64,000 bases of DNA from Alistipes sp. (GTDB taxonomy: Bacteria > Bacteroidota > Bacteroidia > Bacteroidales > Rikenellaceae), in NCBI GenBank assembly GCA_022767745.1, contig JALENN010000006.1, positions 372,001-436,000 on the forward strand. Direction: 5' to 3'. Position 1 is the stretch's first letter. Every line of letters starts with the position of its first letter. Under the pieces are notes generated by a model that saw nothing but the letters and a program-made list of their open reading frames with translations, had not been told where the DNA came from and did not search any database. Positions 20,481 through 46,713 of this stretch are shown piece by piece. The translations under genes and the position numbers were made by a program.

Positions 20481-21536
20481 ATGGAAGAGCAGATAAGAGA
20501 AATCCTGTCGGGTGTGGTACACCCCGAGACACAGGAGAACATCGTCGCGGCGGGTATCGTCGAGTCGATCACATCCGATGGAGGCAACACCGTCGTCATG
20601 TTGTGCTTCCCCAAGCCGCGCGACCCCTTCGCCGCACGCATACGCACACAGGCACAGCAGATGATCGAGCGCGCCATCCCCGCACTGAAGGACCACCTTA
20701 CGGTGGTAGTCAAGGAGTCGGCGCCGCGGCCCCAGCCGCCGCAGCGCGAGAGCACCACAAAGAGCGTGCGCCACATCATAGCCGTAGCCTCGGGCAAGGG
20801 CGGCGTGGGCAAGTCGACCGTCACGGCCAACCTGGCCATCGCCCTGCGCAACATGGGCTACCGCACGGGTATCCTCGACGCCGACATATACGGCCCGTCG
20901 CAGCCCAAGATGTTCGGCATCGAGGGCTATGTGCCCGACGCCGTGCAGGAGAACGGCCAGGACTACATCGTGCCGGCGCAGAGCTTCGGCATCGAACTCA
21001 TGTCAATAGGCTTCTTCATCCGTCCCGACGACGCTCTGATGTGGCGCGGCGCCATGGCCACCAACGCCCTGAAGCAGCTGCTGCACCAGACGCTGTGGGG
21101 CGAACTCGACTACCTGCTTATCGACATGCCGCCGGGAACGGGCGACATACACCTGACGATAATCTCGGACCTGAAGCTCGACGGCGCCGTCATCGTCTCA
21201 ACGCCGCAGCAGGTTGCCGTGGCCGATGTCGTGCGCGGCGTGCAGATGTTCCGCCACCCGCAGGTAAACGTGCCGGTGCTGGGCATCATCGAGAACATGT
21301 CGTGGTTCACGCCCAAGGAGCTGCCCGACAACCGCTACTACATCTTCGGCCGCGGCGGGGCGAAGCGTTACGCCGCCGAGTGCGACGCACCGTTCCTGGG
21401 CGAGATACCCGTCATACAGTCCATCATGCAGGGTTCTGACGAAGGCCGCCCCTCGTCGCTGGACGACGCACAGGTCGAGCAGCACTACCGCGAAGTTGCC
21501 GCACACATTGTTGACAACACCCCCGAAAGGTGTTGA
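20481..21536 (+). CDS. apbC: Mrp/NBP35 family ATP-binding Fe-S carrier protein
   Basis: IAVASGKGGVGKSTVTANLAIAL, DADIYGPSQPKMFG, LLIDMPPGTGDIHLT. Confidence 0.93.
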   Translation: MEEQIREILSGVVHPETQENIVAAGIVESITSDGGNTVVMLCFPKPRDPFAARIRTQAQQMIERAIPALKDHLTVVVKESAPRPQPPQRESTTKSVRHIIAVASGKGGVGKSTVTANLAIALRNMGYRTGILDADIYGPSQPKMFGIEGYVPDAVQENGQDYIVPAQSFGIELMSIGFFIRPDDALMWRGAMATNALKQLLHQTLWGELDYLLIDMPPGTGDIHLTIISDLKLDGAVIVSTPQQVAVADVVRGVQMFRHPQVNVPVLGIIENMSWFTPKELPDNRYYIFGRGGAKRYAAECDAPFLGEIPVIQSIMQGSDEGRPSSLDDAQVEQHYREVAAHIVDNTPERC

Positions 21537-21968
21537 AAAGGATGTAGAAAACCGTATGAAAACTTTCGATAACTTTTACGGCCTAAAAACGTGCTCCGAA
21601 GCAACTCACTGCAACAGAGCAGCCATGTGCGAAAGCAAATTTTCGGGCCGGAAAATATTAAAAATCTTTCACACGGTTTTCAACCGGAAATCGGGGCCGG
21701 CTTTTGAAATCTTTTCGCTGTTGATATGTGGAAAAGTTTTTCGACACAGCCCCCGATTATGTTGACAAGCCGTCGGCGCACCGCATAACCCACTCACGGG
21801 CAGTGCGGTGCCGCGCCGAGGCAAACCACTCTTATCACCAACGCCCGCAGACGAAATTGTCGATAAAATTCCCGCTCAAAAGATATCGACACTATCAACA
21901 GCCTTTATTATTAATATTCTTTATTTATTTAATTAAATAAAAGTATAAAAAAGTAAAAATCTTATGTT
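21531..21968. promoter_or_regulatory. cluster of DnaA-box-like 9-mers beside a ~60-bp near-pure A/T tract (candidate oriC/DnaA-binding locus)
   Basis: TTWTCNACA-like sites at 21531, 21543, 21719, 21727, 21738, 21760, 21858, 21883, 21892; A/T tract ~21903-21960. Confidence 0.45.
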
Positions 21969-21972
21969 GACA

Positions 21973-22260
21973 ACATTTCATGGCGCGATGTGTTCGGAGT
22001 GCGAATCCGCTGCAAATCCGCGCTACAACGGTCGGATGTGCTGAAACATTTTTCGAGGCGCGATAGAAGCTGGGTCGTGATCCGCTGCAAATCTGCGCTA
22101 CGACGGTTGGATGTGCTGAAACATTTTTCAAGGCGCGATGGATGCTGGGTCGTGATCCGCGGCTGATCTGCGCTACGACGGTCGGATGTGCTGAAACATT
22201 TTTCAAGGCGCGATGGATGCTGGGCCGTAATCCGCGGCTGATCCGCGTTACTACGGTCGG
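21973..22260 (+). repeat. tandem repeat array, 4 copies of ~73-75 bp plus degenerate copies to ~22370; homologous core to the 6.67-7.0 kb array
   Basis: Units start at 21973, 22046, 22121, 22196: acatttttcaaggcgcgatggatgctgggtcgtgatccgcggctgatctgcgctacgacggtcggatgtgctgaa. Confidence 0.92.
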
Positions 22261-22544
22261 GGGGAATATTATATGCAGAGGTGGAATCCGCGCTGCAATG
22301 CCGGAAAGTGTTGAAATTGTATGCCGAGGGAAAATCCGTACTGCGAAGTTCAAAGACACTGAAAAATATATTCCCCTAAAAACGCGGCCACCGATATTGG
22401 TCCCCTGTTCCGCACATACCGTTCCGCGGCCGTCATTAGGGGGAGAGGTGCCGGATGTTGAAATGTATGTTGAAACATATGTTGAAATCCCGCGCGAAAC
22501 ATTTACGGGGTATATACCATAACATGTAAAAAGCTGAAGAATCA

Positions 22545-42924: not shown

Positions 42925-43941
42925 ATGAAAGCGATTGATTGGAAGGCGCTGGGCTTCGACTACATGAAGACCGACGTAAACGCCCGCTACTACTACAAGG
43001 ATGGCAAGTGGAGCGAGATGGAGATCACCGAGGATGAGTATATCAAGATGCACATGTCGACCACATGCCTGCACTACGGCCTCGAGGCCTTCGAGGGTCT
43101 GAAGGCGTTCCGCGGCGTCGACGGCAAGGTGCGCATCTTCCGCATGGATGCCAACGCGCGGCGCATGCAGTCGTCGGCACGCAAGCTGTGCCTTCCCGAG
43201 CCTACGGTCGAGATGTTCACGGCGGCCTGCTACGAGGTCGTAAAGCGCAACATCGACTATGTGCCCCCCTACGAGTCGGGCGCATCGCTCTACCTGCGTC
43301 CCGTGCTCATCGGCACCAAGGTGGGACTGGGCGTGAAGGCGTCGCACGAGGCCATGCTTATAGTCTTCTGCTCGCCCGTTGGCCCCTACTTCAAGGGCGG
43401 AATGACCACCATAAAGGTGGTTGTCGACCGCGAACAGGACCGTGCTGCTCCACGTGGAACAGGCGACATCAAGGCGGGCGGCAACTATGCGTCGAGCATC
43501 CTCTCGGGCGAGAAGGCGCACGACCTGGGCTATGCCAACGTCATGTATCTCGACGCGCGCGAGCATAAGTATATCGAGGAGTGCGGTGCCGCAAACTTCT
43601 TCGGCATCAAGGACGGCAAGTACATTACGCCCAAGTCGCCCTCGATCCTTCCGTCGATCACCAACATGAGCCTGCGCCAGCTTGCTGCCGACATGGGCCT
43701 CACGGTCGAGGAGCGCCCCGTTCCCGTCGACGAGCTCGATACGTTCGAGGAGGCCGGCGCGTGCGGTACGGCTGCCGTCATCTCGCCTATCGAGTCGGTT
43801 TACGACCTCGACACCGGCAAATCGGTAACCTATGGCAAGCAGGTGGGCAAAACCTGCCTCGCCCTCTACAACAAGCTGCAGGATATCCAGTACGGACGCT
43901 GCGAGGATACCTACGGCTGGACAACCATCGTAGAGGAGTAG
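42925..43941 (+). CDS. ilvE: branched-chain amino acid aminotransferase
   Basis: LHYGLEAFEGLKAFRGVDGKVRIFRMDANARRM, IKAGGNYASSILSGEKAHDLGYANVMYLDAREHKYIEECGAANFFGI. Confidence 0.94.
   Translation: MKAIDWKALGFDYMKTDVNARYYYKDGKWSEMEITEDEYIKMHMSTTCLHYGLEAFEGLKAFRGVDGKVRIFRMDANARRMQSSARKLCLPEPTVEMFTAACYEVVKRNIDYVPPYESGASLYLRPVLIGTKVGLGVKASHEAMLIVFCSPVGPYFKGGMTTIKVVVDREQDRAAPRGTGDIKAGGNYASSILSGEKAHDLGYANVMYLDAREHKYIEECGAANFFGIKDGKYITPKSPSILPSITNMSLRQLAADMGLTVEERPVPVDELDTFEEAGACGTAAVISPIESVYDLDTGKSVTYGKQVGKTCLALYNKLQDIQYGRCEDTYGWTTIVEE
43446..43461. promoter_or_regulatory. parS-like site inside ilvE
   Basis: TGCTCCACGTGGAACA, 15/16 match to palindrome TGTTCCACGTGGAACA. Confidence 0.75.
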
Positions 43942-44058
43942 GCCTATCCCCATGTCCGGGTCGCGCATACGCTCGGACTTGCGATTTTCTGCCGTTTTTT
44001 ACAGCTTTGAGTAATGCGGCGGCAGAAATTTATAAAAATAATGTTTCATAGCTGGAAA

Positions 44059-44105
44059 GTTGCCTTTTCGGGTCTTTATGACTCTGAAAAGGCAGCTTTT
44101 TTATA
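44059..44105 (+). terminator. terminator of ilvE
   Basis: AGTTGCCTTTTC...GAAAAGGCAGCTTTTTT. Confidence 0.85.
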
Positions 44106-44394
44106 TGCTCCAATTTTCGCGCCGTCCGTGCAACGTCCCGCCCTTGCCCGAAATATCGCGATTTTGAACGCGTTTATTTTTTGAGCGATTTTGAGGTGTT
44201 TCGGGGTTTGTTTGTTGCTGTTGTCTTATTTTTTTGGCCCGCTTTTCTCTTTTCTCTAATTTCCCTTCTACCTCTCTTTCCTTCCTGTCTTTGCCGAAAG
44301 CTGTTGCTTTTCTCTTTTCTGTTTACTCTGCTTCGCCCCTCCCTCCCATTGCCTTGTTTTGCGATTTCTTTATTTTGTTCTGTTATTTTCTCTT

Positions 44395-44410
44395 TGTTCC
44401 ACGTGGAACA
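44395..44410. promoter_or_regulatory. parS-like site
   Basis: perfect palindrome TGTTCCACGTGGAACA. Confidence 0.85.
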
Positions 44411-44434
44411 TCGTTCTTCTCTCCCTTGTTAAAG

Positions 44435-44450
44435 CGTTTCACGTGGAACA
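44435..44450. promoter_or_regulatory. parS-like site
   Basis: CGTTTCACGTGGAACA. Confidence 0.8.
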
Positions 44451-44515
44451 CTTCTGCTCAATTCATTCTACCCTCCCCTGCTCCTCAAATATCTAATTCT
44501 TTTACGCTATTCCTC

Positions 44516-44531
44516 TGCTCCACGTGGAACA
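44516..44531. promoter_or_regulatory. parS-like site
   Basis: TGCTCCACGTGGAACA. Confidence 0.8.
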
Positions 44532-44561
44532 ATTTGTCTCGCCTTCCTCTTTTTTTTTGTC

Positions 44562-44577
44562 TGTTCCACGTGGAACA
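44562..44577. promoter_or_regulatory. parS-like site
   Basis: perfect palindrome TGTTCCACGTGGAACA. Confidence 0.85.
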
Positions 44578-44665
44578 TTCCCATCAAGGATGCTTGAGAA
44601 AAGACTGATGAATGTGCTGCGGCGGGTATGCGAAAGGGAGATAATGCTGCCAAGGAAAAGGCCAC

Positions 44666-44698
44666 AAAAAACGCCCGCAATCGTAAGACTGCGGGCGT
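44666..44698 (-). terminator. terminator of mnmG
   Basis: aaaaaACGCCCGCA-...-TGCGGGCGT (T-run on minus strand). Confidence 0.8.
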
Positions 44699-44754
44699 GT
44701 ATCATGTTGAGATGTGCGGAATTTTGTGCGGGAAAAAAACTTTTTCCGGGGCGG

Positions 44755-46709
<1,955 letters not shown>

Positions 46710-46713
<4 letters not shown>

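Follow-up and report, generated by a model that had tools for sequence, protein, structure and literature searches.

In Bacillus subtilis, the parS sites recognised by Spo0J/ParB (TGTTNCACGTGAAACA) are 16-bp palindromes with a CACGTG core, which form a cluster near the origin and are served by a single chromosomal ParAB pair. ParB proteins of the parS-binding type carry R173 and G201, while the Noc type is characterised by Q173, K179, K184 and R201; the side chain of G201 makes no contact with position 6 of parS (PMC7383237). ParB of Thermus thermophilus binds a one-sided parS, TGTTTCCCGTGAAACA, with the core CCCGTG, in EMSA (PMC4409726). The ParB of Pseudomonas aeruginosa binds GTTCCAC half-sites, and this heptamer is one of its two most preferentially bound variants (PMC10419367). 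In B. caecimuris and M. intestinale, studied by Hi-C, a parS cluster together with a switch in GC skew marks the origin and dnaA does not always do so; homologs of known condensins are reported as not found in either species (PMC10197239).

The window analysed here, a stretch of 64,000 nucleotides from Alistipes sp., contains a cluster of parS-like sites between the genes ilvE and mnmG (gidA) and within ilvE, which is almost certainly, as judged from sequence, the chromosomal parS centromere of this Alistipes-like (Rikenellaceae) bacterium. The cluster shares with that of B. subtilis all of the features listed above; it differs in the CC/GG pairs flanking the core, in the location of dnaA away from the cluster, in the anchoring of the sites to mnmG and in that no ScpA was found in the genome. 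The one-sided core of the Thermus site shows the same A6-to-C change as the sites of some relatives of this bacterium, but in the Alistipes-like genus one-sidedness arises repeatedly and tracks avoidance of ACGT or CACGTG. The GTTCCAC half-site is shared with P. aeruginosa, although all sites of the present genome lie at a single locus, and relatives with broken palindromes always keep one half intact. As in B. caecimuris and M. intestinale, the parS cluster and the skew switch mark the origin, whereas mnmG anchoring, coding parS and one-sided sites are absent from the available part of the account of their clusters (PMC10197239).

parS sites at the ilvE-mnmG locus

The sequence-only reading had placed four palindromic 16-mers in a 183-bp convergent intergenic region, and all four are found at its coordinates (Table 1). 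The two genes are indeed convergent, but the figure of 183 bp describes the stretch from the first of the four sites to the last; the gap between ilvE and mnmG measures 813 bp (43942-44754). A fifth site, additional to these four, lies within the ilvE reading frame. The pyrimidine-rich tract also described there is real for one part of the gap, which contains 74.6% C+T and partly coincides with the 378-bp segment of highest pyrimidine content on the 510-kb contig, but the rest of the gap is not strongly pyrimidine-rich. Family relatives lack such a tract, and a role for it was dropped, as the tract is not conserved.

Table 1. Features of the window, with positions counted from its first nucleotide.
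Feature	Coordinates	Strand	Description
parS site 1	44395..44410	.	TGTTCCACGTGGAACA, perfect palindrome
parS site 2	44435..44450	.	CGTTTCACGTGGAACA, one TTTCAC-type and one TTCCAC-type half
parS site 3	44516..44531	.	TGCTCCACGTGGAACA, one mismatch to the palindrome
parS site 4	44562..44577	.	TGTTCCACGTGGAACA, perfect palindrome
parS site 5	43446..43461	.	TGCTCCACGTGGAACA within the ilvE frame, codons GCT GCT CCA CGT GGA ACA, residues 174-179
ilvE	42925..43941	+	Branched-chain aminotransferase holding parS site 5; TIGR01123 and NF009897 above cut-off
mnmG (gidA)	44755..46713	-	parS anchor gene across Bacteroidota; TIGR00136 above cut-off
Pyrimidine-rich tract	44200..44577	+	Surrounds sites 1-4; lineage-specific and dispensable for parS, from composition and family comparison
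Probable oriC	21537..22544	.	Intergenic, downstream of mrp; skew minimum (21918), TTTTCCACA/TTTTCAACA-type boxes, A+T-rich tract, 75-bp x 3.4 tandem repeat
Tandem repeat	22005-22260		75 bp, 3.4 copies, beside probable oriC
mrp	20481..21536	+	mrp/apbC-like Fe-S carrier ATPase, flanking probable oriC here and in related genomes

Within the window, five matches to the motif occur at up to three mismatches, against 0.21 expected from shuffled sequence. The source assembly is a draft of 2,513,859 bp in 15 contigs and is 93% complete. The strict motif GTTNCACGTGNAAC, which represents the 14-bp core, has three copies in this genome, all of them at the locus, and its reversed control has none. With TGTTCCACGTGGAACA as the query and up to two mismatches allowed, all copies in the whole genome are the five sites of Table 1, so that the motif is limited to 1.1 kb and not scattered uniformly round the chromosome. 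At three mismatches six further matches appear elsewhere, which is background level (23 for the control). Relative to the 16-bp parS palindrome TGTTNCACGTGNAACA, the locus comprises three strict core matches and two one-mismatch sites.

Origin of replication

The cumulative GC skew of the contig falls steadily to window position 21918 and rises thereafter. As its minimum is inside the window, the window holds the origin region, with parS 22.5 kb away, in agreement with the origin-proximal position proposed from the sequence alone. The parS sites of the complete relative G008 are similarly confined near the origin, with a local skew minimum within about 9 kb of parS. The dnaA gene is located on another contig (C14, 257167-257652), where the skew is uniformly positive with no switch nearby, and therefore does not serve as an origin marker in this genome. 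The parAB genes are on a separate small contig (C6). The parS cluster marks the origin in a draft genome of a gut bacterium where dnaA fails to do so.

The skew minimum falls into the intergenic region downstream of mrp, which is the probable oriC. Local skew minima are likewise found at mrp in G008, G054 and G309, 7.7-8.6 kb from the parS of the respective genome, and a similar A+T-rich intergenic region beside mrp is present in G054, G309, G315 and G008. The gene next to this region is read, from its N-terminal sequence, as a putative nadA. The placement of oriC is only probable because the local minima of G315 and G272 fall away from mrp. Canonical DnaA boxes (TTATCCACA) were tried as the sole guide to oriC and rejected, being unclustered throughout contigs C10 and C14; the skew minimum and the conserved mrp-side region were used instead.

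Conservation of parS beside mnmG

The motif is kept at the same position in close and distant relatives. The strict form was found in 58 of 61 genomes of the family, and 28 of the 29 family loci that were fetched by the motif alone adjoin mnmG, whichever gene lies on the other side. In a survey of the phylum, 184 of 198 genomes contain the strict motif; of the 29 loci fetched from this set, 22 lie beside mnmG. Starting from the gene, 66 of 80 Bacteroidota mnmG loci have a strict parS no more than 250 bp away from it, 30 of them on both sides, while the reversed control gives none; the other 14 loci have no strict site within this distance. The anchoring of parS to mnmG is therefore phylum-wide in Bacteroidota, and parS at mnmG offers a way to find origins in this phylum. 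Many of the mnmG-side sites are situated 10 bp or less from the start or stop codon. The titles and abstracts returned by a literature search contained nothing on point about parS with gidA in Bacteroides. In a Flavobacterium locus (L064, 7327-7678), repeats of TGTTCCACATGGAACA with a spacing of about 117 bp are located upstream of mnmG.

ParB and its partners

The genome encodes one ParB_N protein, on contig C6, with a gene for a ParA-like ATPase adjacent. It contains the GERRWRA motif and a parS-type HTH, which corresponds to the CTPase-plus-HTH architecture of chromosomal ParB proteins, and is predicted to act on CTP. In an alignment with Caulobacter ParB, R156 and G184 are the equivalents of R173 and G201, and the positions equivalent to 179 and 184 are occupied by Y and S, not by the lysines of Noc. 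Compatibility of this HTH with the variant palindrome had been proposed as a check, and the residues are those of a ParB that would bind parS and not of Noc.

The palindromes could instead be the sites of another regulator, for instance a transcription factor of the E-box-like kind or a nucleoid occlusion protein of the Noc type. The CACGTG core is generic, and the Noc family model matches ParB, though with only 229 bits where its cut-off is 315. However, no promoter-like site was found in the convergent ilvE/mnmG region, the sites are found near the origin, at a single locus in each genome, and fit the parS consensus, and the sole ParB_N protein found bears the parS-type R and G residues (PMC7383237), all of which makes such a regulator extremely improbable. 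An assignment to Noc and its NBS sites in particular was rejected on the residues R, Y, S and G at the Noc positions, the parS-type G1 and A6 of the sites and the below-cut-off score of TIGR04285. The proposal that this locus is the chromosomal centromere is thus upheld by the confinement of the sites, their proximity to the origin, their conservation at mnmG and the parS-type HTH of ParB. Since the motif is restricted to a single locus, a single parS-type ParB is encoded, a skew minimum is nearby and the position is conserved, the cluster is an ordinary chromosomal parS cluster of the textbook kind.

By analogy with ParABS models, ParB produced from C6 together with ParA would nucleate on the five palindromes, load as a CTP-dependent clamp and spread across the mnmG-ilvE region, and ParA would move the newly replicated origin regions apart.

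A search of the genome (93% complete) gave no match to ScpA. Among the SMC_N matches above cut-off, two come from a single stretch each and fall within open frames that are 559 and 368 aa long, and a third, in a 643-aa frame, counts only when taken together with its neighbours; no SMC_N frame above cut-off is longer. The combination of ScpA and a full-length SMC, which ParB-loaded SMC-ScpAB requires, was thus not recovered, in agreement with the condensin result for B. caecimuris and M. intestinale (PMC10197239). With no ScpA and no long-frame SMC among the above-cut-off matches, ParB may operate in this Alistipes-like genome without its usual condensin partner. This bears on the role of ParB in Bacteroidales, where an SMC-ScpAB partner was not found.

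A parS site within the coding region of ilvE

Of the 46 same-genus genomes that have canonical parS and an ilvE of the PRGT type, 43 retain the codons GCT CCA CGT GGA ACA of the ilvE site, two genomes having ACG as the last codon. Among genomes of the genus the identity of the ilvE protein decreases to about 63% and the codons around the site drift. CCA, GGA and ACA are rare, accounting for 13-16% of the codons for their amino acids in these genes, and the codon window of the site ranks first of 41 (a score of 0.97, against a mean of 0.19 with sd 0.25). The site is missing from all 24 fetched ilvE genes of the family that have no mnmG nearby. The constraint thus acts on the DNA sequence, and recognition by ParB is its best explanation. 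The ilvE site is an example of a centromere site held within a protein gene through codon choice.

Four of the genomes in which every parS is of the one-sided form (see below) have a PRGT-type ilvE. In G289 the coding site has been converted by a synonymous change, CGT to CGG, which alters the core in the same way as in the intergenic site of this genome; in G046, G314 and G327 it has been lost. Conversion or loss is associated with variant status (Fisher p = 1.5e-4, a value weakened by shared ancestry).

One-sided parS sites and avoidance of ACGT

A catalogue of 154 parS sites was compiled from 70 genomes, all but one from the same genus. The core is CACGTG in 123 sites and has one half altered in 31, while no site has both halves altered. 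The altered cores are CACGGG/CCCGTG or CTCGTG/CACGAG, in either orientation. In 12 of the 70 genomes all sites (27 of 27) are one-sided.

Depletion of ACGT, or failing that of CACGTG, is common to all 12 of these variant genomes. ACGT occurs once against 140 expected in 60 kb of G324, 12 times against 202 in 100 kb of G314 and 101 times against 306 in G283; in G046 its depletion is weaker (216 against 339 expected), with CACGTG at 0 against 11 in 100 kb. The variant genomes are mostly drafts, of which loci of 5-9 kb each were examined; such loci contain no or one ACGT in 10 of the 12 variant genomes, and are similarly low in 3 of 54 canonical ones. The two groups differ in ACGT by a Mann-Whitney test (p = 1.6e-7) and by Fisher's test (8e-8), both of which ignore shared ancestry; sister contrasts go in the same direction in five of five cases (p = 0.03). 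The correspondence has exceptions on both sides: G260 and G285 avoid ACGT yet retain CACGTG parS, and L043, L103, L106, L107 and L109 have one-sided sites without ACGT avoidance. The locus L085, from an uncultured member of Bacteroidales, with ACGT at 4 against 37 expected and mnmG flanked on either side by altered parS cores, is an independent case of the pattern outside the genus. A search for methyltransferase motifs in stretches of 60-100 kb from four variant genomes found none.

The lack of contact between G201 and position 6, the one-sided binding in Thermus and the half-site binding in P. aeruginosa make selective pressure combined with half-site tolerance the simplest reading. A lineage would acquire a restriction-like pressure, or a similar defence, against ACGT or CACGTG; this would remove the palindrome, and one intact half would suffice for an unchanged ParB, since position 6 is not read. 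It is reasonably probable that such pressure replaced every parS with the one-sided form in several independent origins, and that it reached the ilvE site through synonymous change or loss, with the same ParB still in use. Comparison of these genomes would show, as a natural experiment, how much of the parS palindrome ParB can do without and how a centromere may be remodelled under restriction pressure.

The sites of a genome change all together, which a trans-acting factor would also explain, so that the one-sided form might reflect a shift in ParB specificity by co-evolution of protein and site and not restriction avoidance. This is unlikely: no ParB residue separates variant from canonical genomes, the HTHs of the sister pairs G289/G272 and G283/G290 are near-identical, the ParB tree requires six or more changes of the label, and one-sidedness tracks the genome-wide loss of ACGT or CACGTG. 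A specificity switch was rejected as the cause of the variant sites in the absence of a separating residue. The extreme depletion of ACGT in genomes such as G324 could in principle be mutational, for example through deamination of methylated cytosine, and not selective. The parS changes, however, replace A6 with C or T by transversion and are not C-to-T substitutions, which makes a mutational loss very unlikely; deamination as the source was rejected, with ATGT/ACAT in G314 and G324 at 0.99-1.00 and thus not raised. An equally low probability attaches to retention of the ilvE site for protein or codon reasons and not as parS. The AAPRGT motif does belong to a conserved part of the enzyme, but the rare CCA, GGA and ACA codons are retained while adjacent ones drift, and the coding site follows the variant state of the genome, subject to the ancestry effect on its p value given above.

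The titles and abstracts covered by the literature search hold nothing on point about parS with restriction or palindrome avoidance; so far as this search shows, a coding parS held by codons and one-sided parS accompanying ACGT avoidance have not been described and look new. In the stretch examined from G272 (L259-L262), CCGG, CATG, GGCC and CTAG are nearly absent, suggesting several restriction pressures in this genome.
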